From positions 7,930,501 to 7,994,500 of the forward strand of contig CM065815.1 of assembly GCA_033398695.1 (NCBI GenBank): DNA of 64,000 nt, in the 5' to 3' direction. Below, in pieces: positions 5,655 through 49,083 of the stretch. This DNA is from Orobanche coerulescens. Lineage: Eukaryota; Streptophyta; Magnoliopsida; Lamiales; Orobanchaceae. Each line of letters opens with the position of its first letter. Position 1 is the first letter of the stretch. The translations under genes were made by a program, and so were the position numbers. The notes under the pieces are model-generated. The model saw nothing but the letters and a program-made list of their open reading frames with translations. It ran no database searches and was not told the origin of the DNA.

Positions 5655-6760
5655 CACCCTCAAACTTGAATTCTTGCTAGTCCCGAGCAAGACTCTTTAT
5701 TAATCACACACAAAAAATAAAAATAAAAATAAAAATAAGACTCAAAAATACTAATACACACATAAATTAAGAAAAATAATCATATGAAAAGAGAAAAGGA
5801 GATCAAAATGCCATTAATACACAACAACCAGCTTTATACAGTAAATATAAATGAATCAAGATTCAAAATAAATCTACTAATGATTTTGAAGTTAAAACAC
5901 GGTTTTATTTTTGTAATTCCAAAATGCAAGGTTTTCCCCCCAAAAGCTTGATTATTTCTTTCCCACTCGTGATACACATGACTCCCTTTAATGGTTGCTC
6001 TCGATCACTCGTTTATTTTTCGACTCAATATGAAGAAGAATTTCATTGGCGTCATCAAATATTGTGATTTTTCACGAAATTGAGTGTATTGAAATTCAGC
6101 CGCTAATTAATTCAAATTTGCTCATAAACTACATCCCTTAGTGATAGCTTTCACACCGTTATTTGCTAACGTGTAGCTCTTTTCACTAACACAATTTCCA
6201 TTTTTTTAGGTGATAGCTTTCACACCGTTATTTGCTAACGTGTAGCTCTTTTCACTAACACAATTTCTATTTTTTTAGGTGATAGCTTTCACACCGTTAT
6301 TTGCTAACGTGTAGCTCTTTTCACCGACACAATTTCCATTTTTTTAGGTGATAGCTTTCACACCGTTATTTGCTAACGTGTAGCTCTTTTCACCAATACA
6401 ATTTCCATTTCGTGTGAGACGGCAGCTACGCACCAACAATGGTTAGTCCTTTATTTTTTTTCAAAATTTCAGGACCCCCAAAATTAGGCAGCTGTTGCTG
6501 CTCAACACCTTTTCAACTAGACTCCTTTCACCAATGACTTTTTTTTAGCGAATAGAATTTTTGCAGAAAATCATTTATTAGTTAAGCATGAAAAATCAAA
6601 AACTCCACAAATTAAGTAAATTTCAGTTCTATTTTTCATCAACCGACTAATTCTTCTTTTCTCAGGGTAACGAATGACTCGATTTTATATGATAACTACA
6701 AGGCTTGGAAAGAGAGATTAAGGCTCAAAAATTTTGGAATATACAATTTTTTTACCGGTT
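5655..6760 (-). mobile_element. 3' noncoding internal region of the TGATA-type retroelement
   Basis: Noncoding sequence between the polypurine tract of the preceding LTR and the LINE that starts at about 6761. It contains A-rich stretches, the 69-bp tandem array at 6141-6416 and no convincing ORF. I read it as the 3' untranslated part of the minus-oriented retroelement, because the corresponding region beside the element at 62308-63670 is also long and noncoding. The gag-pol part is absent. Confidence 0.45.
6141..6416. repeat. 69-bp tandem repeat, four copies
   Basis: A unit beginning GTGATAGCTTTCACACCGTT recurs at 6141, 6210, 6279 and 6348, an exact 69-base period, with only a few substitutions (for example CACTAACAC to CACCGACAC). 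Within each unit GTGATAGCTTTCAC and GTTATTTGCTAAC are short imperfect inverted repeats. Low divergence suggests recent expansion. Confidence 0.95.
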
Positions 6761-9048
6761 AAAACTATATAATAATGCTCTGTGTGCGTCGTCTCTTATT
6801 CTGTTAAAATCAATGGAGATTTGTTTGGACCTATCCAGCCTGAGAGAGGTTTGCGTCAAGGGGATCCTCTTTCCCTATATATGTTCTTGTTCTGTACTGA
6901 GGTTTTTAGTTCGTTGTTTGTGGAGGCTGAAAATAGGGGGTGATTCATGGGGTTGCTGTTAGTCCTTCGGCCCCTCAGGTCTCTCACATGCTTTTTGCCG
7001 ATGACACATTGATTTTTTGCGAGGCTACCAAGGAGTCTGCTCTTGCCATTGTTGATATTTTGCATGCTTATAGTTTGGCTTCTGGTCAGATTATTAACAT
7101 TGATAAATCCACGGTGGTTTTTGGCAAGAATGCGGGGAGTGAGAGGGTGGGGGAGGTAAGGGGGGTATTACCGGTGAGTGTAGTTGATAAACATGAGAAG
7201 TATCTTGGGTTGCCTTCTGAAATGGGGAAGTCTAAGAGAGAGGAGTTTGGTTGGATTAGGGAGAGATTGTGGGAGAAAACTCAGGGATTTGTGGAGAAGC
7301 ACCTCTCTAAGGCGGGGAAGGAAGTTATGATTAAAGCGGTGCTTCAAGCTATCCCTACGTATGTGATGGGGTGCTTTAAACTTCCGGAGTACCTACTCCA
7401 CGAGATGGAATCTATCATATCTAGATTTTGGTGGGGTGATGGGAGTAGGAGGAAAATTCATTGGATTAATTGGTATACCCTTTGTGAGAGCAAAAGAGGT
7501 GGGGGTTTAGGCTTTAGGGATCTTAGATCCTTTACTTTGGCCATGTTGGGTAAACAAGTGTGGCGAATAATTCAAAACCCTGACACCCTACTTAGTCGAG
7601 TGCTTAAGGCAAAATATTTTCCCCATTGTGATATTTTGGATTCTACTCTTAGCTCTAATGCTTCTGTTACTTGGAGGAGTATTCATCACTCTATTGCTCT
7701 TTTGAAACATGGTTTGGTGTGGCGAATTGGGACGGGTGAGTCTATTAATATTTGGAGGGATAATTAGATTCCTAGAAATTCCATTAGAAAACCCTATACT
7801 CCAGATTTCCACGAGTTGGGTTACATACCTATTTCCGGTTTCATTAGGAGGGAGGGTAGTGTTGGATGGGATGTTGAGGCACTGCAAGAGATCTTTTGGG
7901 AGTGTGATGTAGAAGATATAATTAAGATTCCGGTTATTGGGTATGTGGCTGATGTGAGACGGTGGTATTTCAGTCCCAATGGTCACTACACAATTAAAAG
8001 TGCTTACCATGCTGCTAGGGAGATGAAGAAGCAGCAGAGAGTTTTAAATGCTGCGTCCAGCTCAGTTAGTCATGAGAGGGACTGGCAGTTTGTCTGGAAA
8101 ATTAATCTTCCCAATAAAGTTAGAGTTTTCTTGTGGTGGCTACCTAAAAATGGTCTTCCCGTTCTCTCTAATTTGGTGAAACGCAACGTCCAAACTGAAG
8201 ACATTTGCCCTTTATGTTCTGAGTCTGCAGAGTCTACTATACATGTGTTCAAATTATGTTCTTTTGCACGATTAATATGGGCTTTATCTGGTTTTCCTGC
8301 ACATGTTTTGCTTGCTCCTTGTACTGACATATGGGAATGTGTTGTCAATACTAAACAGGCACTTACGCAGGACCAGTTTGCTCAGTTCACTTGCTTTTGC
8401 TTGTGCATCTGGCACCACAGAAATAATATTGTTCATGGCAGTCCAGTACAGTAACCGCCTCAGCTGCTATAGTTTGCGCAGGAATTTTTACTTGGGTACA
8501 GGGCGGCTAAATCTCAATTCTCCTCGCCGCGGCCACCGGATTTTGTACAGCAATGGAAGGCGCCGACTGGAACCACAATTAAGATCAACGTTGATGCTTT
8601 TATTATGAAGTCGAAGAAAGCAGCTGGTCTAGGTGTTATTGCACGGGATTCTCAAGGCCGGACTTTGGCATGGAGACGCAGGAAGGTGGACTACATTACT
8701 TGTCCTCTAACAGCCGAAACTCTTGCTGTTGTGTGTGGAATGGAGTTGGCTTTGGCGCATGGTTGGCAGGAGGTAATCATCGAGAGTGACTGCCTAACGT
8801 TAATTGATGCACTCGACTGGAAACTGTCTTTTGGCTGGTGGCAGTTTCGTGGAAGCAATGAAATTCAATTCTAGATGGTTTCAGAATATTTCTTTACTCA
8901 TGTATTGCGTACTGGTAATCTGATGGCGCATAAGTTGGCCAAGAACGTAGATGTAGACAGTGATGGTTTCATGGATCTACCTATCTGATCTTTAGGAGAC
9001 CTTTGTACTCTTCTTGATTATGAAATACAACTATTTATTTCTAAAAAA
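6761..9048 (+). pseudogene. LINE, 5'-truncated: reverse transcriptase, zinc-binding domain, RNase H
   Basis: Plus-strand frames give a plant LINE-type reverse transcriptase from its middle onward: GLRQGDPLSLYMF (about 6850), the catalytic block LFADDTLIFCEA (6990-7025), KYLGLPSEMGKSKREEF, RFWWGDGSRRKIHWINW and GGGLGFRDLRSFTLAMLGK. After an in-frame TAG at 7766-7768 it continues as a zf-RVT region (YTIKSAYHAAREMK, then WKINLPNKVRVFLWWL and CPLCSESAESTIHVF). After a shift near 8455 it ends with an RNase H domain (KINVDAF, GLGVIARDSQGRTLAW, ESDCLTLIDAL). It terminates at an A-run at 9041-9048. The endonuclease and N-terminal RT are missing, so it arrived 5'-truncated or was later cut. Dead copy but well preserved. 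Confidence 0.9.
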
Positions 9049-9586
9049 AATCCTAAATAAACAAATATTTCTACTATTCACATAATTTCAGATACATATC
9101 TTCAGGATTTAAAGTAAAAAATAACTTCACAATTTCGAATACCTCGAGATTTTGAATTTCAAGATTCATAATCCAATCACTAATCCTAGCATATACACCT
9201 CCACAATTCTACTCATCATCTCCTAATTTAAAAAGAAAAAAAAAAGATAAAAAAAAAAAAATCACTCACCACAAGGGTTCCTTTGCAATGGCTGCATTTG
9301 AAACATGCTTTATGATAAGTTGATCCATCAGCTGTCAGCAAATCAACAAAATAAACAGTCTTATCACAAGCCTTGCATTTATTCAAGGTTCCTGTGAATG
9401 CTGCAATTTTTCTCTTCCCCCCCACCCCCCTTTTTTTCCCCTTATTTATTTCTCTTTTCTATCTTAATAATATTTTTTTTAATGCCTGTGGCAAATTTGG
9501 ATGGAATCCTATTAAACTGGAGAGAAAATAGGCTGATGTTTTTTGACCTTTTCCAATGAAAATATTTGAGTGAAGAAAGTAATAGG
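9049..9586. other. Spacer around the WLIM fragment
   Basis: Apart from the WLIM exon at 9270-9411 this holds A-rich and homopolymer tracts (for example 9233-9260 and a C/T run at 9417-9436) and no other recognisable unit. Confidence 0.6.
9270..9411 (-). pseudogene. Orphan first exon of a plant LIM-domain protein (WLIM2-like)
   Basis: The minus strand reads AFTGTLNKCKACDKTVYFVD, then LLTADGSTYHKACFKCSHCK, then GTLV and a GTGAGT donor at plus 9264-9269. This is the first half of the N-terminal LIM zinc finger (C-x2-C-x17-H-x2-C-x2-C-x2-C) of WLIM proteins, which bundle actin filaments and may enter the nucleus. The position and phase of the donor fit the usual WLIM exon 1, but the expected ATG is replaced by GCA (GCAGCATTC), and no second LIM half, spacer or second LIM domain is found towards lower coordinates, where a LINE sits 220 bases away. 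A fragment or a gene broken by insertions; not functional as it stands. Confidence 0.75.
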
Positions 9587-9804
9587 TGTTATAATAAGCC
9601 TTGAAAGTGACATTTCAATTACCCTTTTGTTTTTATATAGTGTGAATGACTATTATACCCCTAATGTAAATATGTAATTACGATTGTGCCATCTGAAGTT
9701 TTCCTATAAATAGGACTTCAGTTATTAATGAAAATCATACCTGAGAATCATTCTCTCTATTCTCTCTCTAAATTTTCTCTCTCTATTATTTCGATTTCAC
9801 AACA
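9587..9804 (+). repeat. 5' LTR of retroelement copy 1
   Basis: 218 bp, TGTTAT...ACAACA. It contains a TATA-like CTATAAATAG at about 9704-9713 followed by a CT-rich leader (TTCTCTCTATTCTCTCTC), the probable promoter and start of the element RNA. Confidence 0.92.
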
Positions 9805-9818
9805 CGTTATCAGCACGA
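9805..9818 (+). other. Primer binding site of copy 1
   Basis: CGTTATCAGCACGA directly abuts the left LTR. ACACGTTATCAGCACGA at an LTR junction is, to my knowledge, a common plant Ty1/copia arrangement and fixes plus-strand orientation. Confidence 0.75.
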
Positions 9819-10003
9819 CTCTAACCATTTGAGTAATATGATGAGAGTATGCTCTACAGTTGCATCGTATAGATGATCCTCTGTACCAGAAATCAATTAT
9901 TACAGATAAAATTTCCTCATCAAAATGGCTTATGGCTAGTCATAACAATTTTGAAGCTTTTCATCTAAAAAATAAAAAATAAAAAATAAAAAAAAATATG
10001 AAG

Positions 10004-10091
10004 AAAAAGGAGATGACTGTGCGTGATGCTTTGAATTCAGCCCTTGATGAAGAGATGTTTGCTGATCCCAAAGTCTTTTTAATGGGGGAAG
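10004..10091 (+). pseudogene. Captured exon fragment of pyruvate dehydrogenase E1-beta
   Basis: The plus strand reads KEMTVRDALNSALDEEMF then ADPKVFLMGE, the start of the mature E1 beta subunit of mitochondrial pyruvate dehydrogenase, where plant proteins have a very similar KEMTVRDALNSALDEEM segment followed by KVFLMGEEVG. The match stops at GGGGAAG, close to an expected exon end, and the sequence jumps directly into an unrelated RING-H2 fragment. The rest of E1-beta (thiamine diphosphate and E1-alpha contacts) is absent. It lies in the same orientation as the retroelement, 200 bases inside its left LTR, so I read it as transduplicated host sequence. Confidence 0.85.
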
Positions 10092-10109
10092 GAGAGTCGA
10101 GATCCAACA

Positions 10110-10390
10110 ACCCGCCGCTTCCTTCACGTGTACGCCCGTTGCTGTGGGCGCCGCTGTCGCCTCCGCCACGTCAGCACAGCGAGCTCTCGAGGCCTCAATC
10201 TCTCCGTCGTGAATGCGATTCCAACTTTCGTGTCCGAATCCAAAAAGCAAAGAGCATCCGCCGGCGGAATTATGCCCGATTGCAACCACTGTTTCCACGC
10301 CGAGTGCATAGACATGTGGCTCCACCACGCCGATCGCCCGCTTTGCAGGACCCGGATTAAGGTCCCAGGCATCGGCGACCCGACTGAGAT
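10110..10390 (+). pseudogene. Captured ATL-type RING-H2 ubiquitin ligase fragment with part of the RING deleted
   Basis: Immediately after the E1-beta piece the plus strand reads RFLHVYARCCGRRC, then SSRGLNLSVVNAIPTFV, then MPDCNHCFHAECIDMWLHH and RPLCRTRI. ATL ligases have a hydrophobic segment, a basic stretch, a GLD motif followed by the same xSVVxxxPTFxY context, and a C-x2-C...C-x-H-x2-H-x2-C-x10-C-x2-C finger. Here the GLD region and the second half of the RING (C-x-H-x2-F-H-x2-C-I-D-x-W-L ... P-L-C-R) are present, but the first zinc-binding pair (the xCAVCL segment) is missing: the frame passes from SESKKQRASAGG straight to IMPDCNH. It could not fold as a normal RING. GC content is much higher than that of its host element, marking it as foreign. 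Confidence 0.8.
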
Positions 10391-10970
10391 TTCACACGGA
10401 AATATTGCACAGGCTCCTGTATCACCGGATCCGGGTCCTTGGTGGAGATCCGGATTGCATCTCTGTGTACTTTCATACTAGTAAATCAAAATCCTGTTGC
10501 TGGGGTCCTGGGGACATAAGAGAATTAGCCAAGGGTTGCCACCGACCGTTACCTTTCCGAGAAACAGCCCTGCAATACCGACCAGCCACCCCAGCATCTC
10601 CGTTCTACAGCACACAGATCCGACGGAATTGGCGGCTTTTGTCATCTGAGAAGCTCCCTACGAGGTATTCTTCTGTGTGTGTGTGAATATGTTTGTTACT
10701 AACAGAGAAGCCATGAAGAAGAAGAAGAATAATAATAAAAAAAAAAAAGAGGGAGGGGTCACGGCATCTAACAAAAAAAAAATGAAAAGCCATGGAGAAG
10801 AATAAAAAAAAAAGAACTGGGATGAAGAAAACGAGGAGGATAAAAAGTAAAAAATTGGAGATGGGAGGTGGACCGAAGATGATTATGAGAGAAAAATAAT
10901 AACACCGTTGACAAACCAAAAAAAAAATAAAAAATAAACAAAACATAAAAAATAAAATATTTTTTATTCA
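10391..10970 (+). other. Unidentified cargo and purine-rich tract in copy 1
   Basis: From 10391 to about 10670 the sequence stays GC-rich and partly open (for example RPATPASPFYSTQIRRNWR at about 10579-10635) but I recognise no protein. It may be a third captured fragment. From 10700 to 10960 it is GAAGAA/AAAA-rich. At the same place copy 2 has a different GA-rich stretch (43430-43700). From about 10970 the two copies become alignable. Confidence 0.5.
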
Positions 10971-11469
10971 TTAAATTCCAAATTCGGTTTTTCTTAAATA
11001 TAAGATACATATGATATCAGAATTAATTTTTCTTGATACCACCGTGACCCATTTCACGAGAGCTTCAATTTGACACTAATATTGATATGGGTATTAACTC
11101 TTTTCATACATGTCATTATTAAATTTATTACAACGTACGAATTAATATCCAACCCCGGAAATCGCAAATATTTATGAATACATACCCTTACACATGCTAT
11201 TAACGGCAGTCGATATTTCGACCTATACCTTGACAATGACTATTTTGAGGAATTGATTGGACGATCCTGCTCTGGTAGAAGCAGTTAATTATTTTGCAGT
11301 TTAAATTATGTCTCTTACTTATCTCAAAGTGGTGGTTTAAAACCACATATTTATTGCGTTTATTTTATATAATTATAATACCTCCCATGTGATGAGTTCA
11401 ATTATCACAAGACGGATGGTTTTACATCTACGCAATTTATATATTATATATCACCATCGTGGTTGGTTA

Positions 11470-11790
11470 TACCACATGAATGGTTCATAAATCTTGCTCT
11501 CGAAGAAGAAGCAGTTGATAAAAATAAATCCTACTCTGGAGAAGTAGTTGATCAATTTCCTGCTCTGAAGAAGCAGTTGAAAGAAATAAATCCTACTCTG
11601 GAGAAGTAGTTGATCGATTATCTAAATCCTGCTCTGAAGAAGTAGTTGATAAAAATAAATCCTACTCTAGAGAAGTAGTTGATCGATTTCCTGCTCTGAA
11701 GAAGCAGTTGAAAGAAATAAATCCTACTCTGAAGAAGTAGTTGATCAATGATTCAAATCATGCTCTCGAAGAAGAAGCAATTGATGGATA
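11470..11790 (+). repeat. Tandem repeat of CTGCTCTGAAGAAGCAGTTGA units in copy 1
   Basis: At least seven degenerate units alternate between CTGCTCT..GAAGCAGTTGA and CTACTCT.GAGAAGTAGTTGATC with ATAAAAATAAATC linkers. The same array lies at 44625-44870 in copy 2, so it is a family feature. CTGCT...AGCAG gives each unit a short hairpin. Confidence 0.85.
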
Positions 11791-12250
11791 TAATATCCGA
11801 TCTCCATGATTAAACACGAATAGAGAAAATTGAGCAAGTGATACCATAAGCTATCACCGATTAATTAAAGAAAATACCATGAAAACTGCATGGTGGAATC
11901 ATTTGACAAGTGATATGGAAAATATCACTGGAAAATAATTGCTCAATAAATCACACGTTGATTATATCACATGGTGGGATCATTGAAATTATATTGATTG
12001 GCAATATTCATGGGAAAACATATATCACATATTTGTGAAAATATTATATTTGCATAAAAGCAAATGATGGTCTTATTATTGTTGAAGAAGCACACAACAG
12101 TCGAAGTGAAATATCGAAACTAGATGAAAGGCAATAAACACTCGACAATATGAAACGCGAAAAAGAAAATACATATGAAACCCATAAAAGAAAAGGGGTG
12201 CGTCTCGAGAGTATAAAACTCCGTAACTCTGCCACCCCCGGCATAAGGGT

Positions 12251-12919
12251 TTATAATAAAAGATTTAAATGATCTAAACTTCTTTTCCATTTGGCGCCAA
12301 TAGCCTGTGGCTGATGAGCTTTGACTTCCAAATTCTTAACTGAAATATATGCCTGAAACTTTATAAATAGATCAGCAACAGTATCAGCACATATTATTAT
12401 ATCTCGTGATGGCTGAGATATAAACTTGTGATCTAGTCCTTGACCCAGAAAGGCAAGCAAATCGCTGAAGAAATTATTAATATTCAACAAACCTATAGGT
12501 TTGGTATGGAAGTCCCGCTCAGCACATGACGTGATGTTGAATATCTCAATGAGTATGTCGTAGCCACCTGGGAGAACAATAAAGGCATCACTATTATTCA
12601 CCGCATACATCAAACTATCATGAACAGACTGTGCTTGAAGCATCAACCCAATTGAACCTCCTATACTACTGGTTCTGACTGTGGGAAAGTGTAAGGCACT
12701 TGTTACACTTATTCTCCCATTTTGTGCAGCATCTAAAAGATAACCCAAAAATCTATGATTACTCCCACCATACAATATATCGATTTTGTGCTTTCCTAAT
12801 TTTTTTACGAATTGATATGCCATATCTACATGCTGGATATGACCTATCAGTTTGGATCCACCTAAAATACATATAGTTTTAAATGGATGAGACCTATATG
12901 AGGATTCTGAGAACTCCAT
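12251..12919 (-). CDS. LOG-like (cytokinin riboside 5'-monophosphate phosphoribohydrolase-like) ORF inside retroelement copy 1, antisense
   Basis: An uninterrupted 222-codon frame. It aligns by eye along its length with LONELY GUY proteins, which release active cytokinin bases from their nucleotides. Matching blocks are ICILGGS (residues 17-23), a helix then KHKIDILYGGS (43-53), SDAFIVLPGGY (110-120), then AERDFHTKPIGLLNIN and FISQPSRDIIICADTV. The family motif PGGxGTxxE is PGGYDILIE here: both PGG and Glu125 are kept but G and T are D121 and I122. The region equivalent to PRE-ITG reads VRTSSIGG, keeping Arg82 and losing the Glu. Catalytic activity is therefore doubtful. It runs opposite to the element's LTR sense and 281 bases downstream of a second antisense ORF. 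There is no intron, suggesting capture from processed RNA or an intronless relative. A broken relative is in copy 2. Confidence 0.8.
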   Translation of the reverse strand: MEFSESSYRSHPFKTICILGGSKLIGHIQHVDMAYQFVKKLGKHKIDILYGGSNHRFLGYLLDAAQNGRISVTSALHFPTVRTSSIGGSIGLMLQAQSVHDSLMYAVNNSDAFIVLPGGYDILIEIFNITSCAERDFHTKPIGLLNINNFFSDLLAFLGQGLDHKFISQPSRDIIICADTVADLFIKFQAYISVKNLEVKAHQPQAIGAKWKRSLDHLNLLL

Positions 12920-13199
12920 TTTTCTACACTAGACTTTCAAAATACTTTTATGAGAGATACATTTTCTGATTTGTGGATCCTAAATTTAAAGAACAAACTT
13001 CTTTATAAACGACAAATGACTTCACTATTTTTCATTGAAAATGGAGCGGCAGATAAGTCATTACTTTTGACAAAATTGCAAAAGAAAACGAAAGATATGA
13101 TATTATATTTTTCAATGAAAATGACGTTATCGATCGGCAACTGAGAAATTTAAATATTGGAAAATAATATTCATCAACTTGCATTATTTTTCTATTACC

Positions 13200-13730
13200 T
13201 TATACCAACTTTGATAGAACGGACTTACAAACTGGATCTTTAGAGATTAATTTTTCATGACTATAATGTTCCCGTTCATCCTTAAATTGTATCCACAAAG
13301 CCATTAGTTCACGATGAACGTATCCACTGGGATGTGCATCAAGAATCTGTTGGATATCATGCTCCATAGATTCCTTACTCAATCCATCCTTGATAAATGC
13401 TATTTTATCTTCTCGATTTTTGGATACAAACCCCACAGATTTGCATCGTGTGTCACATATCCACCGAGCACATTTATAGCACCCACCTAATCTTTTTGCT
13501 CTCCGTTTCCTTGCAAAACTACTCTTACCTGTACCTGACATGTACTTAAATGAATTTGAAAATTCGCCAGATAATCGAACTTGTGCTTCGATCAACCATC
13601 GAATATCTTCTGGGATGCCATTTCTCATTAGCACCCTTAATCTTTCGAGTCGAGCTCGATAAATTCTTTTTATGATACTCACTGGAAGAGATGGATAATA
13701 TTTACGAAGATTCGAAAGCATTGAATCCAT
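13200..13730 (-). CDS. Unrecognised 176-aa ORF with a cysteine cluster, antisense in retroelement copy 1
   Basis: An intact frame beginning MDSMLSNLRKYYPSLPVSII. I do not recognise the family. Visible: a basic N-terminal half with likely helices (IIKRIYRARLERLRVLMRNG), a strongly basic stretch FARKRRAKR (72-80), then a C-x2-C-x4-C-x3-C cluster (Cys84, 87, 92, 96: CYKCARWICDTRC) that could bind zinc, and an acidic/charged C-terminal half (KESMEHDIQQILDAHPSG, ALWIQFKDEREHY). It precedes the LOG-like ORF on the same strand. A copy with the same N-terminal half and a frameshift just before the cysteines exists at 46831-46316 in retroelement copy 2. Whether it is element-encoded or captured from a host gene cannot be told from here. 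A nucleic-acid-binding role is only a guess from charge and cysteines. Confidence 0.6.
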   Translation of the reverse strand: MDSMLSNLRKYYPSLPVSIIKRIYRARLERLRVLMRNGIPEDIRWLIEAQVRLSGEFSNSFKYMSGTGKSSFARKRRAKRLGGCYKCARWICDTRCKSVGFVSKNREDKIAFIKDGLSKESMEHDIQQILDAHPSGYVHRELMALWIQFKDEREHYSHEKLISKDPVCKSVLSKLV

Positions 13731-14724
13731 TATGATATTCAGACCCTCGATATGGGTGAATTTTGTGAATACAATGATAATCTATTTATAGATTGGAATT
13801 ACGCGTATGAGATTTGACTCCGCGTCCTGAAGCGTATGAATTACGGCTCTATATTTGAATAATGAACATAATATGAGATGTGGGAGCAGAGACTCCATGT
13901 TGAAAATGATGTGCAATAATGGCACCGAAAGATGATGTGATATGCCGGTAAAATATCTATATGATGATATAGACACATCGTCTTCAAATATTTGTTCTCG
14001 ATTAAAATCACTACTAGCCAATATTGGGAATGAATCCCTTATAAATTTGGAATATATTAAGGGGGAGTATGGGTCCACTTCCTCTACATGTGAACTACTA
14101 GATATTATGGATCCACTAGATAGTCACATGTTTATATGACTCGTAATCAGAAATTTACGAGATGATTTGCTCACGGTTTGAGCATATATTCCATATCAGA
14201 TTGAGCTAGTAATATATCCCAAATAAACTTGAATAGATCCCAGAAAGGATCGAGATATGCGCATACAAGTGGGATATCAATTGGCATACTATTTGAAGTC
14301 CTCCAGCCAATATCGAGAACATAATATATAAACTCCCATGACTAAAAATGAATACTGAGATACTGGCATACGAGTTTAGTGCTCAAGAAATCTCTTAGCA
14401 TGAGGGGGAGTATTGGTAGTTGGAAATATGCGAAATGCATCACATTATATCCTCACAATTATATGAACATGAAGTTCAAAGATGCATGATAGATTATTAA
14501 TCTTTGATACCAACTACAACTGCTTTGATAAATACATAATAATTCCCCGAATATAAATCAAAGCAAATGATAAAAGGAGGCATATACTTTTGAGAAGTAT
14601 GTAGACATAACCACAATGTGTAATTCCAATGGATGATTGATAATGAGATATCTCGGCAAGTTATATTGCCATGGGGAAATAAATATTAAAAAGTGCCGAC
14701 ACAATATAGTGCTATGAATAAAAT

Positions 14725-14960
14725 GAAGATATCAATGATTGGAAAGAGAATATCGATAAATGATATGAGGATATCCATGACTGTGAAATATGGATATTGG
14801 AAATGAGGATATTAAAATCCATGATTTGTGAAAATGAGGATATCAATGATTGGAAAGAGGATATCGATAAATGATATGAGGATATCCATGACTGTGAAAT
14901 ATGGATATTGGAAATGAGGATATTAAAATCCATGATTTGTGAAAATGAGGATATTGAAAT
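14725..14960 (+). repeat. 111-bp tandem repeat in copy 1
   Basis: The unit GA(A/G)GATATCAATGATTGGAAA begins at 14725 and again at 14836 with very few changes, and a partial third unit starts near 14947. It is built from shorter GAGGATAT / GATATTGAAATCCATGA words. Copy 2 has a shorter version at 47796-47905. Confidence 0.9.
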
Positions 14961-15094
14961 CCATCGAAATTGAAATATATGCCCTTATAATAAAATGAAA
15001 TATATGGGCTTACTGAAAGTGACTCGTAAGGAGATTTTGAACATATTATCAGTGCGTGCAGTCACTCAAAACGTTGTGAACGAAAATTATATGC

Positions 15095-15870
15095 TGTACT
15101 CTTTTCCTTGACTGAGGTTTTATCCCACTGGGTTTTCCCAGCAAGGTTTTTAACGAGGCAGCCTAATCACAACAAATATGGAATCTCCAAAAGATATTTG
15201 GAATATATCGCAAAGAATATGAGTTCGATATTACAAATTGCACTGAAGATGATACTCATACTAATTCCTGGAGGATTATTGAAATGCATGGGGCATATTT
15301 ATAAAATACGCGTTGCACTCTTTTTCCCTTGACTGAGGTTTTGTCCCAATGGGTTTTCCTAGCAAGGTTTTTAACGAGGCAACTGGAATGGCGTATTAGT
15401 ATGAATAATGTACTCTTTTTCCTTCATTAGGATTTTTCCCACCGGGTTTTTCCTAATAAGGTTTTAATGAGGCATATTCATGACATAATGAGGAACACTA
15501 CAAAGATCAAGATTATTCCTCAAAGTTTGAAACCGGAAGGGGTAGTTGTACTCTTTTTCCTTCGATCAAGTTTTTCCCACTGGGTTTTCTTGACAAGGTT
15601 TTAATGAGGCAACACATGGATACTCCAACGAATGATATACATGACAGTTCACTCAGTTTTTATCCCACGAGGTTTTACTGAGACGGCATAAGAATATTCA
15701 TACAAGAACTATCGAGATAAGGGGGAGCAAATTTACGAGATCACCGATTGCTGAAGTTTTTATCCAACGGAGATTTCCTACCAACATTATGATGCAACAT
15801 GATATGATTGCCACAAGCTCCAATACAAACAGTTTGAAAGTTTTTCTCCCATTTGGTTTTTCTTCAAACT
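15095..15870 (+). repeat. Copia 3'-type repeated motif region in copy 1
   Basis: Five to six degenerate copies of CTTTTTCCTTGACTGAGG, then TCCCACTGGGTTTTC, then AAGGTTTTTAACGAGGCA, spaced about 100-150 bases. I know this pattern from the stretch before the 3' LTR of many plant copia elements. It ties this gag-pol-less element to copia. The same region in copy 2 is 48035-48830. Confidence 0.8.
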
Positions 15871-15911
15871 AGTTCAGCAGATATTTATGTAAATAGTCAT
15901 TCAAGGGGGAG

Positions 15912-16129
15912 TGTTATAATAAGCCTTGAAAGTGACATTTCAATTACCCTTTTGTTTTTATATAGTGTGAATGACTATTATACCCCTAATGTAAATATGT
16001 AATTACGATTGTGTCATCTGAAGTTTTCCTATAAATAGGACTTCAGTTATTAATGAAAATCATACCTCAGAATCATTCTCTCTATTCTCTCTCTAAATTT
16101 TCTCTCTCTATTATTTCGATTTCACAACA
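15912..16129 (+). repeat. 3' LTR of retroelement copy 1
   Basis: 218 bp, almost identical to the left LTR (two differences seen: GTGCCATC to GTGTCATC and CCTGAG to CCTCAG). Preceded by the polypurine tract AAGGGGGAG and followed by the target duplication ATAGG. Confidence 0.92.
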
Positions 16130-16134
16130 ATAGG

Positions 16135-16480
16135 TAGTTATTTTAGTTACAAATAATAAAATAAGTAGAAATGGAAAAATTTAAGAGAAAAATCATTTTA
16201 CATTGAATAAATAGTGTCTAGTTATGGCATGTCAAATGTTTTACTCTACAATCTTCTACTCAAAGTCGATAAAAGGTGGGAGAGATCACAGTAGCTGTAT
16301 TTTTTAAATATAAAAAGATGAGCGAGAAATAGTTGATATTTTTTAAATATAAAAAGATGAAAGAGAGAGATTGCAGTCTAAAGTAAACATATGACGTGCG
16401 AGAAGTTGTTGGTTCGGTATTTGAAATTTAAATCTTAGATTAAATGAGTATTGTGATTCAAAATCTAACTCCAACATTTA
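16135..16480. other. No recognisable feature
   Basis: AT-rich spacer with a short local repeat (TTTTTTAAATATAAAAAGATGA at about 16299 and 16340). No ORF or element recognised. Confidence 0.6.
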
Positions 16481-40558: not shown

Positions 40559-40886
40559 TGAAGTCAAGATAATAAAATCGAGAAGTCGAAGACCGTTTAT
40601 GAATTATGAAGAAGATATTGGGGATGGTCAGGAAGAAGATGATGAAGACAAAAGAACTGTTTATAATCTAAAAATTTCATTCAACTTGATTGTCTTACAA
40701 ATTCCCCCAACATGGTGTACTATTTATACATATAAATTGGGCAAAGGAATCACCAACTATTAAATTGACACTACAAAAAACAAGATGACTCTTTGAACAA
40801 TTTAGACACTTCAAACTACTTATTCAGACTTAGGAATTATAGTTCAAACTTTGAAACACTAAAAAAGCGCTTGAAAAACTAAAAGA
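40559..40886 (-). mobile_element. Probable 3' noncoding/LTR part of copia element 1
   Basis: Retroelement copy 2 inserted here (target AAAGA), and the interrupted sequence resumes at 49084 as the 3' end of a minus-strand copia pol. The piece on this side therefore should be that copia's 3' end. 40559-40775 (TGAAGTCAAG...GACACTACA) has TG...CA ends and, on the minus strand, a TATAAATAG-like box, so it may be the LTR, but there is no second LTR to compare. Confidence 0.4.
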
Positions 40887-41112
40887 TGTTAAAAATTGTT
40901 GAAGTATATCACTTCTCGTAATGCGTAACAAGATAATGTATTATAATATGTGAATGACTATTATGCTCCTGATATAATTATGTAATTACGATTGTGCCAT
41001 CTGAAGTTTTCCTATAAAGAGGACTTCAGTTATTAATGAAAAACATATACTTCAGAATCATTCTCTCTATTCTCTCTCTAAATCCTCTCTATAATATTTC
41101 AGTTTTATAACA
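40887..41112 (+). repeat. 5' LTR of retroelement copy 2
   Basis: 226 bp. CCTATAAAGAGGAC is the TATA region (CTATAAATATGAC in the right LTR). From GTGAATGACTATTAT on it is closely similar to the LTR of copy 1; the first 50-60 bases differ. Confidence 0.92.
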
Positions 41113-41397
41113 CGTTATCAACACGAATGTTCTAATCCTTAGTTTCCAAAAAAAAAAAAATAGAGAAACACCAGTTCTAGTTCCTCTCCCTCCCTTCCGA
41201 TTTCTCATGCCACACACTGTAATACCCGTACTTTTTGTAAATCTTCTACTCTTGTGCTTTGTAATTTTGACACTCGTGTAAGTGTTTAGTAAGCTTATAT
41301 TAATCTTGGAACTCTTGTCAATTGGATTTACCCCCTTTCTTGTTCGGATCGTCGCTGTTTTCGGATCCTTGACGCGATTATACTACCTTCGTGTAAA

Positions 41398-41802
41398 GGG
41401 TAGCGCACGCTACACACACCTTGTAGCGCACGCTAATTTAGTGAGGGTAGCGCACGCTATCCGTTATAATTAGTGCACGCTACTAATGTATTGGAGGCAG
41501 ACAGTCCAGTAGCTACTGGACTGAAAAAGGGAATTCCTAGCGTACGCTAGGTGTGTCTGGTAGCGTACGCTAGATTTTAGTGGTAGCGCACGCTACGTTA
41601 CTCGAGTAACGTGCACTTAGGAGAGCAGAGCTGGGGACAGTAGGTTCTGGCGCTATTTGAAGGTTCTAGCGCACGCTATTTGAAGGTTCTAGCGCACGCT
41701 ATTAACAGTTGTTAGCGTACGCTAACGAAGCTGGCGGAGGCCACTGGACTGCCTGGTGAGTCCGATAGCGCGCGTTATTTTTCATGACTATCGCACGCTA
41801 GT
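41398..41802. repeat. Palindrome field TAGCGCACGCTA / TAGCGTACGCTA
   Basis: At least a dozen copies of TAGCGYRCGCTA-like self-complementary 12-mers, singly and in close pairs, within 400 bases of the solo LTR. Variation is mostly C/T and G/A at the centre, keeping the symmetry in many copies (GTAGCGCACGCTAC, TAGCGTACGCTA). Confidence 0.92.
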
Positions 41803-42277
41803 TTCTATTTAGTATAAATAGGACACTTCCGTTCCCAAATCGTCATTTCTTCCTTCCTTCACCTCCTTGGACGATTTCGGGCGATTCCGGGCGATTTGGG
41901 AGGAGTTATTCGAGCTGCAATTATCTAGCAACATCTTTGAGTTACTAGTTTGGATTTATCAACGTTTAATTCTCCCCACCGCTCCAAATCAAGGTAAACT
42001 TCTCACAACCCTAGATTTTCGAGATTTGGGGATTTTCCATCCGATCTCTTCGATCCAGCTTGTTGTTATGTTAGAATATATCGATTATGAATTATCTACC
42101 TTGGATACATGTTTTTCTACGGATTTATTGATATATTTCCGGAGTTCTTGAGTATTTGGGATATTTGACTTGCGATTCACCATCTAAGAGAATTATTCCC
42201 GGAACACATGTATCGGGGTAGTAAATTCGAGTGATTCCAACTTATTTTCATACTGATGGGGTTTTGATAATTGAATT

Positions 42278-42836
42278 ACGAACTTGTCTAGGTTCGGAGT
42301 TGTCGAATCCTTCAATCTTGGTACCTTGTCGTTCGAACCCTTTTCTCTCGATTCCAGGCAAGTGATTCTTGTGAAAGTTAAGTTCTTAAATGTGAAAGGT
42401 AATGCATGTGATTGTGAGAGTTGCTTTCGTTCACTCCGAGAGGACCCGACGGGGTCGAGGAGGGTTCCGCTTATGTCGGTTCCGTGAACATTTGGGTTAG
42501 CCACTCCAAGATGATCCGACGGGGTCGAGGAGGAATTCGCGCATTGTCGAGTCCACTACGAACTTGTCTAGGTTCGGAGTTGTCGAATCCTTCAATCTTG
42601 GTACCTTGTCGTTCGAACCCTTTTCTCTCGATTCCAGGCAAGTGATTCTTGTGAAAGTTATGTTCTTAAATGTGAAAGGTAATGCATGTGATTGTGAGAG
42701 TTGCTTTCGTTCACTCCGAGAGGACCCGATGGGGTCGAGGAGGGTTCCGCTTATGTCGGTTCCGTGAACATTTGGGTTAGCCACTCCAAGATGATCCGAC
42801 GGGGTCGAGGAGGGATTCGCGCATTGTCGAGTCCAC
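42278..42836. repeat. Direct duplication of 280 bp
   Basis: ACGAACTTGTCTAGGTTCGG starts at 42278 and 42558. The two units are nearly identical (for example AGTTAAGTTC against AGTTATGTTC, CGACGGGG against CGATGGGG), so the duplication is young. Each unit contains GACGGGGTCGAGGAGG twice. Reading frames repeat accordingly and are not genes. Confidence 0.95.
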
Positions 42837-43367
42837 GGTTAATCAAGAGATATCATCATTTCTAAATATGTTTGGATAATTGTATTTTCCGGAAAATCAT
42901 TATCATGGTTTTGAATTGGTGCATGTGCTTTTATGTATAAGACTTGACATTTCACTTGTAATACTTGCCCTAACCCCTCTCGTTTGGGGAAAATTACTTT
43001 TGTGCTTTTCAGGTCCTAAGGATCCATACGAGCGAGCACCAGGACGATACGATGAGGATGGCGAGGCGTGATACTGTGGCTAGTTGTGTTCCTTTTCGTT
43101 TGGTCGTTGTTCTCTTTGGTCCATTTTATCCTTGTAATAATAAATGGTACTCGAGTACTTTAGGAAAGTCCTTTTCGTACAACTTCTTGTATTTCTTTAT
43201 GGTATTGTTTGTCCGTGGTTGAACTTCCTTGTTTGTATCGAATTTATTGATTCCCAAGTGGATGTTGTCAATTTGATACGTTGTGAGTAAGATAAGCCTA
43301 GTGGGTCCCAGGTGGGGATTCACGGCGCTGTGATATTCTCCGAATATCTCGGGAGTGTTACACACAC

Positions 43368-43740
43368 AGGGCTCACGCCACACACAGGGCTCAGACACAG
43401 CAGGCAAGCAGTGCAGTAGAGAGTGATTGGCGAAAGCGAAAAAAAATTAAAGCTCCACCTCCGGTTCCCTGCGAATTTAAAATGGAAGCTCCGGCGTAGG
43501 TCTCGACGTGCGCGAGCAACAAAAAGAAGAGAAATAAATTTCGAAGTTCAGATAGGTACATATTCTAAACCAAAAAAAAAAGTGGTGACAAGAGGAAGAA
43601 GAAAAAACAAAAGTGTGAAGAAGACGGCCAGGGAGGAGATGAAGAGCAGATAAGGGAGAAAGAGAAAAAAAAAGGAGGGGGGGAACACGAACGGGTAAAG
43701 GAGAAAAAGAAAAATAAATAAAATATAAAAATATAATATT
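43368..43740 (+). other. Variable 5' cargo of retroelement copy 2
   Basis: Together with 41127-41212 this replaces the E1-beta/ATL cargo of copy 1. It includes CACACAGGGCTCACGCC repeats, a moderately GC-rich piece (CTCCACCTCCGGTTCCCTGC, 43453-43472) and a GAAGAA-rich tail. I recognise no protein. It may be captured 5' UTR/exon sequence. Confidence 0.5.
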
Positions 43741-44099
43741 CTTTTAATTCATTAAATTACTAATTCGGTTTTTCTTACATATAAGATACATATGATGTCA
43801 GATTGATTTTTCTTGATACCACCGTGACCTATTTCACGAGAGCTTCAATTTGACACTAATATTGATATGTTGATTATAATCCTTTTAATATCTGTCATTA
43901 TCAAAATTTATTAAAATGTACAAATTAGTACCTTGATTCCTTCAAAAATATTGAAATAACTTGTGGATATGTCCTTGTATTGTGAAAATTTATAAAGTGG
44001 TATGTGTAATATTACGGGACGACCAGGCGGCACTGATGCCGACAACTGGGGTTGATGATGACTTTTAATGATCCAACCTAATACCACATGATTATACTT

Positions 44100-44870
44100 T
44101 GTGAAAATGGTTGGACGAACCTGCTCCAGAAGAAGCAGTTAAATATATACATTATGTAAATATTACTATACCTCCTGTGTGATAGTCTGATTATCATAAG
44201 ATGGATGGTGATACCTCCCATATGATAATTAATTACCACAAGATGGATGGTGATACCTTCTATGTGACAAGTCTAATTATCACAAGATGGATGGCGATGC
44301 CTCCTATATGATAAATGTAATTATCACAAGACGGATGGTTTTACATATTTACTATACCTCCTATGTAACAAGTTTAATTATCACAAGATGGATGGCGATG
44401 CCTCCTATATGATAAATGTAATTGTCACAAGACGGACGGTTTTACATATTTATTTTACCTCCTATGTGATGAGTTCAATTATCACAAGACGGACGGTTTT
44501 ACATATTTACTGTACCTCCTATGTGATGAGTTAAATTATCACAAGATGAACAGTTTTACATGTACGCAATTTATATATTATATATCACCATCGTGGTTGG
44601 TTATACCACATGAATGATTATCTAAATCCTGCTCTCGAAGAAGCAGTTGATAAATATAAATCCTACTCTGGAGAAGTAGTTGATCGATTATCTAAATCCT
44701 GCTCTCGAAAAAGCTTGATAAATATAAATCCTACTCTAGAGAAGTAGTTGATCGATTATCTAAATCCTACTCTCAAAGAAGCGGTTGATAAAAATAAATT
44801 CTACTCTGAAGAAGTAGTTGATCAATGATTCAAATCATGCTCTCGAAGAAGAAGCAGTTGATGGAAATAA
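44100..44870 (+). repeat. Two tandem arrays in copy 2
   Basis: 44160-44570: about seven units of TACCTCCTATGTGATGAGTT, then AATTATCACAAGA(T/C)GGA(T/C)GGT. 44625-44870: units of CTGCTCTCGAAGAAGCAGTT alternating with CTACTCTGGAGAAGTAGTTG. Copy 1 has one or two units of the first and about seven of the second, so the array sizes change between copies. Confidence 0.88.
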
Positions 44871-45327
44871 TATCCGATCTCCATGATTATTAAACACAAA
44901 CGAAGAAAATTGAGCAAATGATACCAGAAGCTATCACCGATTAATTAAAGAAAATCCCATGCAAATACACCGCATAGTGGGATCATCTGACAAGTGATAT
45001 GAAAAACTATCACCGGAAAATAATTGCTCAATTAATCTCATGTTGATTATATCACATGGTGGGATCATTGAAATCATATTGATATCACAATAGAGAAGCA
45101 TATATCACATATTCATGAGAATAATGTATTTGCATAGAGGCAAAAAGATGATCTTATTATTGCTGGAAAAAGCACAAAACAGTCGAAGTGGAAAATATTG
45201 AAACTAGCCAAAAAGATAATAAACACTCGACAATATGCGAAAAGTAGAATACATATGAAACCCATAAAAAGGGGTGCGTTTCGAGAGTATAAAACTCCGT
45301 AACTCTGCCACTCCCTGGCATTAGGGT

Positions 45328-46010
45328 TCATAATGAAAGATCTAAAGGATCTAAACTTCTTTTTCGTTTGGCGCCAATAGTTTGTGGCTGATGGGCTTTG
45401 ACTTCCAAATTCTTAACTGTAATATATGATTGAAACTTTATAAGTAGATCAACAACTGTGTCAGCACATATAAGAATATATCTTGATGGCTGAGAGATAA
45501 ACTTGTGGTCTACTCCTTGATCCAGAAAGGCAAGCAAATTGCTGAAGAAATTATTAATATTCAACAAACCTATAGGTTTGGTATGGAAGTCCCGCTCAGC
45601 CCATGACGTGATATTGAATATCTCATTGAGTGTGTCATAGCCACCTGAAAGAACAATAAAGGCATCACTATTATTCACCATATATATCATACCATCATGC
45701 ACAGACTGTGCTTGAAGCATCAACCCAGTTCAACCCCCTATACTACTGGTTCTAACTATGGAAAAGTGTGAGACTCTTGTTACTCTTACTCTGCCATTTT
45801 GTGCAGCCTCTAAAAGATAACCCAAAAATCTATGGTTACTCCCACCATACAATATATCAATTTTGTGTTTCCCTAATTCTTTTACGAATTAATATGACAT
45901 ATCTATATGCTGGATATGACCTATCAGTTTGGATCCACCTAAAATACATATGTTTTAATTGGATGATATCTGTACGAGGATTCTAAGAACTCCATCTCTC
46001 TAAACTATAT
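45328..46010 (-). pseudogene. Broken LOG-like ORF in retroelement copy 2
   Basis: The C-terminal 131 codons are open (45723-45328: SVHDGMIYMVNNSDAFIVLS, GGYDTLNEIFNITSWAERDF, KPIGLLNINNFFSNLLAFLD). A TGA interrupts the frame just upstream, where copy 1 reads SSIGGSIGL, and the N-terminal half has further changes. The PGGxGTxxE site reads SGGYDTLNE: Thr and Glu are kept, the Pro is lost, and Gly is Asp as in copy 1. Asp at that place is thus probably ancestral to the family, while I122 of copy 1 is private. Non-functional. Confidence 0.78.
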
Positions 46011-46315
46011 TTTCAAAGTACTTTTATGAGATATACAATTCCTGATTTGTGGATCCCAAATTTAAAGAACAAACTTCTTACTAGAAGACAAATGACTTCA
46101 CTATTTTCATTGAAAAAGGAGGAGCAGATAAGTCACTGCTTTTATTATTTTCTTTTTGACAAAATTGCACAAGAAAACGAAAGATATGATATTATATTTT
46201 TCAATAAAAATTACGTTATCTATCGGCAACTAAGAAATTTAAATATTGGGGAACAATATTCATCAACTTGCATTTTTTTTGCTATTTACCTTATATGGCT
46301 TTGACAGAACGGACT

Positions 46316-46831
46316 TACAAACTGGATCTTTTGAAACTAACTTTTCATGATTATAGCGTTCCAGTTCATCCTTAAACTGTGTCCAGAAAGCCAATAGTTC
46401 ACGATGAAAGTATCCACTGGGATGTGTATCAAGAATCTATTGGATATCGTGATCCATAGATTCTTTACTCAATTCATCCCTGATAAATGCGATTTTATCT
46501 TCTCGATTTTTGGATACAAACCCCACCGATTTGCACTGTGTGTCACATGTCCACCGAGCATATTTATAGCATCACCTAATCTTTTTGCTCTTCGTTTCTT
46601 TGCAAAATTACTCATACCTGTACCTGGCATGTACTTAAATGAATTTGAAAATTCGCCAGATAATCGAACGTGTGCTTCGATCAACCATCGAATATCTTCG
46701 GGGATGCCATTCCTCATTAGCACCCTTAATCTTTCGAGTCGAGCTTGATAAATTCTTTTTATGATATTCACTGGAAGAGATGGATAATATTTGCGAAGAC
46801 TAGACAGCATTGAATCCATTATGATAATCAA
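46316..46831 (-). pseudogene. Broken relative of the cysteine-cluster ORF in copy 2
   Basis: Matches the 176-aa ORF of copy 1 from MDSMLSSLRKYYPSLPVNII to AKKRRAKRLG. Then a single-base loss shifts the frame exactly before the CYKC motif; the cysteine region is still recognisable in another frame (46575-46535). Substitutions such as V to I, R to Q and S to P are conservative, but without calculation I cannot say whether selection acted. Confidence 0.75.
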
Positions 46832-48857
46832 ACCCTCGATATGGGTGATTGTGAATACAATGATAATCTAGGAATTACGCGTATGAGGTTTGACTCCGCG
46901 TTTGAATAATTCATATCCCGAAGCATATGAACTACGGTTCTATATTTGAATAATGAACATAATATGACATGTGGGAGCGGCGAGTCCATGTTGATAGTGA
47001 TGTGCAATAATAGCACCGAAAGATGATGTGATATGTCGGTAAAATATCTATATAGTGATATAGACACATCATGTCTTCAAATATTTGTTCTCGATTAATA
47101 TCACTACTAGCCAATATTGGGAATGAATTCCTAATAAATTTGGAATATATTAAGGGGGAGTATGGCCCCACTTCCTTTATATGTGAACTACTAGATATTA
47201 TGGATCCACTAGATAGTCACATATGTATATGACTCGTAATCGGAAATTTACGAGATGATTTGCTCATGGTTGGAGCATATATTCCATATCAGATTAAGCT
47301 AGTAATATATCCCAAATTAACTTGACTAGATCCCAGAAAGGATCAAGATATGCGCACACAAGTGGGATATTAATTGGCATACTATTCGAAGTCTTCCTGC
47401 CAATATCGAGAACATAATATAAAAACCCCATGACTGAAGGTAAATACTGAGATACTGGCATATGAGTTTGGTGCTCAAAAAATCTCTTAGCATGAGGGGG
47501 AGTATTTGTAGTTGGAAATATGTAAAATGTATCACACTATATCCTCACAACTATATAAACTTGAAGTTCAAAGATGCATGATAAATTATTAATCTTTGGT
47601 ACCAACTACAACTACTTTGATAAACACATAATAATTTCCCGAATATAAATCAAAGTAAATGATAAAATGAGGCATATACTTTTGAAGTATATAGACATAA
47701 CTATAAAGGAAGATAATGAGATATCTCGACAAGTTATGTTGCTACAGGGAATAAATATTGAAATTGTCGACACAATACAGCGCTATGAATAAAATGAGGA
47801 TATTGAAATCCATGATTGTGAAATATAGATATTGAAATGAGGATATTGAAATCCATGATTGTGAAATATGGATATTGGAATGAGGATATTGAAATCCATC
47901 AAAATTGAAAAATATGCCCTTATAACAAAATGAAACATATGGGCGTACTGAAAGTGACTCCTGAAGAGATTTTAAAAGTATTATCAGTGCGTGCAATCAC
48001 CCAAAATAAGACGTTGTGAAAGGAAATTATATGCTGTACCCTTTTCCTTGACTGAGGTTTTATCCCACTGGGTTTTCCTAGCAAGGTTTTTAACGAGACA
48101 GCTTAACCACAACTAATATAGAATCTCCAAAAGAGATTTGGAATATATTGCAGAGAATATGAGTTCGATATTACAAACTGCACTGAATATGATACTCGTA
48201 CTAATCCTTGGAGGATTATTGAAGTGCCTGGGGCATATTTGTATATACGCGTTGCACTCTTTTTCCCTTGACTAAGGTTTTGTCCCATTGGGTTTTCCTA
48301 GCAAGGTTTTTTTAACGAGGCAACTTGAATGACGTATTAGTATGAATACTGTACTCTTTTCCCTTCATTAGGATTTTTCCCATTGGGTTTTTCCTAATAA
48401 GGTTTTAACGAGGCATATTCATGGCATAATGAGGAAAATTTTAAAGATCAAGATTATTCCTCAAAGATTTAAAAACATAAGGGGTAGTTGTACTCTTTTT
48501 CCTTCGATCAAGTTTTTTTTCCCAGTGGGTTTTCTTGACAAGGTTTTAATGAGGCAACACGTGGATACCCAACAACGAACAATATACATGGCAGATTCAC
48601 TCAGTTTTGTCCCATGCGGTTTTACTGAGACGGCACAAGAATACTCATACAAGAACTATCAAGATAAGGGGGAACAAATTTACGAGATTACAGATTGCTG
48701 AAGTTTTATCTAACAGAGGTTTCCTACCAACGTTATGATGCAACGTGATATGATTGTCACACGCTTCAATACAAAAAGTTTGAGGGTTTTTCTCCCATTG
48801 GGTTTTTCTTCAAACTAGTTCGGCATATATTTATATAAATAGTCATTCAAGGGGGAG

Positions 48858-49083
48858 TGCTAAGAATTGTTGAAGTATATCACTTTTCGTAATGCGTAAC
48901 AAGATAATGTATTATAATATGTGAATGACTATTATGCCCCTGATGTAATTATGTAATTACGGTTGTGCCATCTGAAGTTTTCCTATAAATATGACTTCAG
49001 TTATTAATGAAAAACATATACTTCAGAATCATTCTCTCTATTCTCTCTCTAAATCCTCTCTATAATATTTCAGTTTTATAACA
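48858..49083 (+). repeat. 3' LTR of retroelement copy 2
   Basis: 226 bp, TGCTAAGAATTG...TTTTATAACA, followed by the duplication AAAGA at 49084-49088. Confidence 0.92.

Follow-up and report, generated by a model that had tools for sequence, protein, structure and literature searches.

A pol-less LTR retrotransposon family of Orobanche coerulescens with an antisense NABP-LOG gene pair, a possible nuclear counter-defence module shared with gypsy-type elements

The 64,000-nucleotide stretch of the Orobanche coerulescens genome analyzed here (contig CM065815.1, positions 7,930,501 to 7,994,500; the window) contains two copies of a long terminal repeat (LTR) retrotransposon family without pol, whose interior carries two genes on the strand opposite to that of the element: one for a homologue of the cysteine-rich proteins (CRPs) of carlaviruses, here NABP, and one for a LONELY GUY (LOG) family protein. 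The same pair follows the pol of gypsy-type elements in sense orientation. The reading we favor, with slightly better than even confidence, is that this pol-less family carries, in antisense, a cassette of gypsy-type elements, a predicted trans-acting nuclear counter-defence module. The elements and their genes are located as follows.

9587-16129: element 1, with 5' LTR at 9587..9804 (plus strand, 218 bp, TG...CA) and 3' LTR at 15912..16129 (plus strand)
40887-49083: element 2, with 5' LTR at 40887..41112 (plus strand, 226 bp) and 3' LTR at 48858..49083 (plus strand)
13200..13730, minus strand: NABP open reading frame (ORF), homologue of carlavirus-type cysteine-rich proteins, 176 amino acids (aa), element 1, intact
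13488..13508, minus strand: basic stretch RKRRAKR of NABP
13443..13481, minus strand: Cys cluster CxxC-x4-C-x3-C (CYKCARWICDTRC) in NABP
12251..12919, minus strand: LOG-family ORF, 222 aa, element 1, intact
12545..12571, minus strand: PGGYDILIE, a degenerate version of PGGxGTxxE, the LOG motif
46290..46819 (low end approximate), minus strand: NABP remnant of element 2, with a one-base deletion and one internal stop
45328..45995, minus strand: LOG remnant of element 2, with a one-base deletion and two internal stops

Profile searches matched the 176-aa protein, which had been left as unrecognized in the preliminary description of this DNA, to PF05515 (9e-9; 36 bits against a cut-off of 23) and PF01623 (3.4e-5; 24.2 against 20.9 bits), and these matches relate it to the cysteine-rich proteins that carlaviruses and allied plant viruses encode (Viral_NABP and Carla_C4). 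Among its 302 relatives, 29 were chosen for closer analysis, and at an E-value of 0.01 Carla_C4 was recognized in 28 and Viral_NABP in 27 of them; the 120 matches listed include Orobanche, Striga, Populus, Rhamnella and many further contigs, the best match in Orobanche gracilis being at the level of 93%. Viral contigs scanned with NABP, the NABP alignment and P0208 yielded no relative. According to PMC12172455, the viral CRPs are silencing suppressors, one of them a transcription factor, with a nuclear localization signal (NLS) and a zinc finger. The second gene, which in element 1 follows NABP on the minus strand after 280 bases, was rightly named a LONELY GUY homologue: in the hidden Markov model check its product matched PF03641 (9.9e-17), TIGR00730 (4.5e-22, with 78.6 bits under the curated cut-off of 96.35) and PDB chain 2a33 (7.5e-27). 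The structure model, with a predicted local distance difference test (pLDDT) score of 75 and residues 202-222 under 50, found 2a33 as its best Foldseek match (5.8e-15); as judged from the PF03641 profile and the modeled fold, the protein belongs to the LOG family. Its best match in O. gracilis was at the level of 86%, and viral contigs scanned with LOG yielded no relative.

The signals that delimit the two elements are given below.

9582..9586 (left) and 16130-16134 (right): target site duplication (TSD) ATAGG of element 1
40882-40886 and 49084-49088: TSD AAAGA of element 2
9806..9818, plus strand: site GTTATCAGCACGA resembling a primer-binding site (PBS), element 1
41111..41126, plus strand: PBS-like site of element 2, overlapping the final two bases of the LTR
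15903..15911, plus strand: polypurine tract AAGGGGGAG, element 1

Two LTRs, TSD, PBS and polypurine tract identify LTR retrotransposons, and both insertions were confirmed as first described, with LTR pairs identical at 216/218 positions in element 1 and 218/226 in element 2. The PBS-like sequence CACGTTATCARCACGA stands at the end of both 5' LTRs with 0 mismatches, and these are its sole two matches in the window at up to two mismatches (expected 0.01). The site of element 1 could presumably pair with the anticodon arm of tRNA-Ile carrying inosine 34 (half-tRNA-Ile, inosine read as G); an Rfam scan of 9500-16200 at gathering cut-offs and a tRNA scan were both empty. Six TCCCA..GGTTTT motifs precede the 3' LTR in each element, and together with the PBS they may be signs of a copia (Ale-like) lineage. 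The interior of neither element showed significant similarity to four copia pol ORFs located elsewhere in the window (best E 0.066; gag not profiled), and by the gag-pol criterion neither is classed as an autonomous Ty1/copia or Ty3/gypsy element. Concerning the pol-less interior with two antisense ORFs that the preliminary description had assigned to both insertions, the cargo is indeed common to both, but both ORFs are broken in element 2, and therefore one window copy alone carries intact genes. A second gap in the NABP of copy 2 (codon 175) is an artefact of the stretch cut and was not counted as damage. The earlier conclusion that capture predates both insertions and that the cargo was spread by retrotransposition stands. 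Between the elements, LTR identity is 81-82%; the LTRs thus differ by 18-19% and the cassette by 9-10%, which might be due to faster turnover or to exchange of the LTRs.

The LTR family carrying NABP-LOG is high-copy in the 3.65-Gb genome. First-look searches, whose candidates are not confirmed copies, returned 10,499 candidates for NABP, 10,630 for LOG and 1,837 for a non-coding piece of the element. The 150 scored NABP candidates, which include the window copy and are biased since they are the best-scoring ones, all matched (131/150 without internal stop), as did the 150 scored for LOG, while the 40 scored for the non-coding piece showed at least 97% identity. In 29/30 NABP loci (L002-L031, L002 being the window copy), NABP is followed by LOG on the same strand, mostly 272-287 nt away; in L003-L031, non-coding sequence of the element is present upstream in 29/29 and downstream in 28/29, and gypsy-type pol in none. 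Three complete extra copies (L063-L065; 5947, 7097 and 6527 bp) possess two LTRs (identical at 209/215, 216/217 and 214/216 positions), a PBS and a 5-bp TSD (AATTA, GTAAG and, if the LTR start lies two bases earlier, ATATT); the fourth of the four 7.9-kb regions has one LTR within the fetched stretch. None of these four regions showed a match to the four window copia pols or to the pol of L001.

L001 (DAIEQH010000041.1), a 3,330-base contig, encodes rve (2.4e-16) and Integrase_H2C2 (1.4e-12) domains and, about 205 bases on, NABP in sense; no LOG match was found in the remaining 1 kb of L001 or in its own bin. This contig carries a plant-type retrotransposon and is filed in a Candidatus Nomurabacteria bin, likely a contamination of the reference bin. 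Its pol family gave 166,094 first-look candidates in the O. coerulescens genome itself, and 86 were scored, at 72-76% identity. In 4/4 two-kilobase stretches downstream of such gypsy-type pol (L068-L071), NABP and then LOG follow, both in sense, with several frames broken. This order marks the cassette as a gypsy-type accessory module, which probably moved from a gypsy-type into a short-LTR non-autonomous element; a resemblance of the donor elements to Athila is our assumption. Linkage of the two genes extends to other plants: NABP and LOG rows (100 and 65) share equal-sized contigs of 4511 and 8723 from one source, and the chance control produced no coincidence of at least 4000 at 400 offsets, a third equal size, 1524, being within chance (offset control on all sizes: mean 0.36, maximum 3). 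In O. gracilis, the NABP gene OROGR_009122 and the LOG gene OROGR_009121 are numbered consecutively. Retro-type LOG homologues occur in Populus, Diospyros, Reevesia and further contigs; Striga was absent among the LOG matches listed.

Capture of a host gene by the window element alone was rejected given the homologues elsewhere, the LOG tree and the gypsy-type pol-NABP-LOG order. In that tree, whose host sequences were two Arabidopsis LOGs alone, 39 retro-type rows formed one clade (98/93) apart from these two and from seven bacterial-type rows, and two Xanthoceras rows were sister to it. The following two features characterize the end of the retro-type LOG protein.

12278..12295, minus strand: basic cluster AKWKRS, a predicted NLS (AKRKRS in most copies examined)
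12254..12268, minus strand: C-terminal LxLxL, EAR-like (LNLLL in the window copy)

Outside Orobanche, 89 retro-type LOG rows were analyzed (P0148 plus 88 homologue rows, of which four are Xanthoceras models and several are short). An exact C-terminal LxLxL was present in 73/89 (shuffled tails, 2.9) and a basic cluster within the last 32 residues in 78/89, as compared to 0/28 and 2/28 in bacterial-type rows; it speaks against our reading that these tails were counted on matches of a profile containing the tail and that the controls held no host plant LOG tails. The Orobanche rows, several of them truncated models, showed the LxLxL end in 19/34 and the basic cluster in 21/34, and all 14 in-frame genome copies examined end in LDLSL (28 alignable loci, 14 frameshifted ones left out). 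The tail thus resembles what we take to be the EAR repression motif, for which TOPLESS binding is predicted. The same type of tail is borne by Diospyros and Populus proteins annotated as LOGL10 (P0184, P0236, P0260), and P0184 and P0236 fall within the retro-type clade; public LOG gene counts may therefore include transposon genes.

As an alternative, cargo that activates cytokinin, as the preliminary description had it, could by means of free cytokinin keep cells dividing and thereby favor germline transposition. The LOG fold would allow for this, and so would the rows outside Orobanche, where the catalytic Arg is kept in 82/86 scored rows (88 given; P0182, with Tyr, set apart) and Glu in 85. 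Moreover, the gypsy-type LOG pieces, inspected by eye, keep Arg in 4/4 stretches and the full PGGFGTLEE in 3/4, and the gypsy-type enzyme may therefore be active. By contrast, this column held Arg in 0/29 scored Orobanche LOGs (34 given), with Asn in 27 and Ser in 2; in the window LOG it is Ser102, and each of the 14 in-frame copies examined in this genome likewise has Ser. In the PGGxGTxxE motif of the same 29 rows, GT was found in 13 and Glu in all. For CgLOG, Arg99 and Glu122 have been proposed as the catalytic pair (PMC4979012), and in the tree a long stem branch of 1.48 leads to the lineage of the window LOG. The window LOG is likely a pseudoenzyme, as its residues suggest, and a role in cytokinin activation appears improbable.

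Selection on the two genes was estimated from the window copies and from the genome loci. Between copies 1 and 2, omega was 0.37 for NABP (neutral null 0.77, P 0.024) and 0.41 for LOG (neutral null 0.75, P 0.02), and gaps opened twice in 1198 coding and 48 times in 3496 non-coding positions. For shared variants, i.e., those in two or more copies scored against the window copy, the omega-like ratio of NABP was 0.18 in NABP-chosen loci (binomial P 3e-5) and 0.33 in the loci selected by their non-coding match (P 5e-4); singleton variants gave 0.38 and 0.55 for NABP in the two locus sets and 0.88 for LOG. These P values are optimistic because the copies are related. The non-synonymous and synonymous divergence (dN and dS) between the window and L001 NABPs was 0.26 and 1.40, respectively. 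NABP is intact in 25/29 NABP-chosen and 9/25 non-coding-chosen alignable loci. Based on these comparisons, NABP is under purifying selection, whereas LOG is only weakly constrained. The preliminary description had set its proposal against a lack of further intact copies and a dN/dS near 1; what was found are open-frame copies and frames, NABP above all, that are not neutral. That the cassette is dead weight on a successful non-autonomous element, a passive hitch-hiker, would fit the weak constraint on LOG and its 11/28 intact copies, the 9/25 intact NABPs in the non-coding-chosen loci and the lack of a significant difference between shared and singleton variants. Such a passive role is nonetheless unlikely in view of the shared NABP variants, of the excess of dS over dN against L001, and of the frames and tails conserved in rows of several eudicot genera.

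Two predicted features suggest how the antisense unit might be expressed.

13784..13790, minus strand: TATAAAT, predicted promoter of the antisense unit, 54-60 nt ahead of the NABP ATG
12862..13228, minus strand: predicted 367-nt intron, with donor GTAAGT in NABP and acceptor TTTTAG in LOG

The TATA box is present in 28/29 loci. The predicted splicing would fuse NABP to LOG in frame, giving a 370-aa product. Its junction DPVCGSK also occurs in P0129, which has 46 members, and in P0133, where I replaces V; six annotated models from O. gracilis and O. hederae show the junction by pattern, and such fusion-type models may be gene-finder products. Splice and TATA 10-mers are conserved in 27-28/29 loci, which is weak support because many other 10-mers reach 28 loci, namely 43% of those within NABP and 2-17% of those within the LOG and non-coding parts. 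Alternatively, the antisense RNA could itself be the product, with double-stranded RNA tuning the element and the proteins being secondary, an idea found in PMC7264820. The antisense orientation and the widespread TATA box are in line with it; codon-level constraint on NABP and the occurrence of the same genes in sense in gypsy-type elements make it quite improbable.

The retention of NABP and of the basic, EAR-like LOG tail, with the catalytic Arg lost, leads us to favor nuclear counter-defence over hormone activation. We propose that a short-LTR element, copia-like in its PBS and 3' motifs, acquired the cassette from a gypsy-type one. The TATA box of the cassette would there drive antisense transcription, and some of the transcripts would be spliced so as to encode a NABP-LOG fusion. 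NABP would bind nucleic acid and weaken RNA silencing like its viral relatives, the LOG part, likely a pseudoenzyme, would enter the nucleus and recruit TOPLESS-type corepressors via its EAR-like tail, and the element would move on gag-pol from an autonomous element, likely a copia. A bolder version, possible but rather doubtful, is that of a eudicot-wide gypsy-type counter-defence cassette, composed of a NABP silencing suppressor and a TOPLESS-recruiting LOG repressor and having a common origin with flexivirus CRPs; a broomrape non-autonomous element would have stolen and inverted it, lost the LOG catalytic residue and fused both genes by splicing. As a further alternative, the parasitic plant might retain the cassette for its own benefit, in parasitism or immunity, which would accord with the listing of the genes as proteins in Orobanche annotations. 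We regard this as very unlikely: the 29 checked loci, all near the window copy, sit in the element (no search was aimed at a domesticated single-copy locus), and homologues occur in the non-parasitic Populus, Reevesia and Diospyros.

Several results weigh against the counter-defence module and its gypsy-type origin. The NABP structure model is poor (pLDDT 52), hence there is no fold link between NABP and the viral CRPs, and the NABP tree contained no viral sequence. Mutation bias alone lowers omega-like ratios (the neutral null is about 0.75), LOG is weakly constrained (0.61 for shared variants, P 0.03) and intact in 11/28 loci, and in neither gene do shared and singleton variants differ significantly (P 0.15-0.28). 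One of the four gypsy-type LOGs is without the motif Glu, and the two with a visible end finish in FLSL, not LxLxL. Furthermore, window-type NABP shares only 50-52% identity with the gypsy-type NABP of its own genome and forms its own starred clade with Striga, from which it follows that the transfer is old. The gypsy label derives from integrase profiles (rve, Integrase_H2C2), the reverse transcriptase lying outside the L001 stretch, and the copia label is tentative.

Each window element also contains private sequence, and a repeat lies outside both.

9905..10959: stretch private to element 1, absent from the complete extra copies L063-L065
41219-43380 (limits by eye): private insert of element 2, about 2.1 kb, with a 280-base tandem duplication at 42277-42836
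6072-6410: tandem repeat with a 69-base period, followed by an ORF at 6988-7767 that by eye resembles a long interspersed nuclear element

Within the stretch of element 1 there is part of a RING-H2 finger on the plus strand (zf-rbx1, 7e-6, under the cut-off) and, less strongly supported, a transketolase-like match (0.016), both of them likely transduced host gene pieces; the insert of element 2 is possibly a nested element.

If the proposed function holds true, retrotransposons and plant RNA viruses employ the same protein family, and the role of conserved extra ORFs in plant LTR elements, a long-standing question, becomes testable. Some annotated plant 'LOG' genes would then likely be transposon genes, which bears on cytokinin gene counts.

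Among known systems, LARD-type (large retrotransposon derivative) non-autonomous elements likewise have two LTRs and a long interior without pol; the window family differs from them by its two genes for proteins, of which one is clearly under selection. The carlavirus, allexivirus and mandarivirus CRPs (PF05515, PF01623) share with NABP the Pfam match and a basic stretch followed by a Cys cluster, whereas NABP is retrotransposon-encoded, has 176-182 aa and adjoins LOG, its activity being predicted. LOG cargo of LTR elements, taken as undescribed in the preliminary description, has a precedent: a YgdH/LONELY GUY domain is reported in the Gypsy-type LTR consensus of two Citrus species and, with the copy filter off, in Populus trichocarpa (PMC9289625, section 12, citing Steinbauerova 2011). 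These Ty3/gypsy elements thus resemble the window family in a LOG-family extra ORF, and that section, whose 15 domains are all Gypsy-type, names no NABP partner, EAR-like tail or antisense pol-less carrier. In the literature searched, with most subscription journals outside its coverage, no description of the NABP-LOG pair, the EAR-like tail or the antisense transfer was found. For cucumber, an endogenous flexivirus replicase has been described (PMC3136472); the term cysteine-rich is absent from the part available. Grande, RIRE2, Retand and PvRetro13 also contain antisense additional ORFs, with their own promoter in Grande (PMC7264820), and the window element is distinguished from them by two genes of known families and the absence of pol. 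Finally, orchid gypsy elements with an ORF for an AlkB N6-methyladenosine demethylase (PMC9289625) offer a parallel in an accessory gene with a virus-side counterpart, AlkB of flexiviruses, that is kept by an LTR lineage, although the gene is another one and its carriers have gag and pol.
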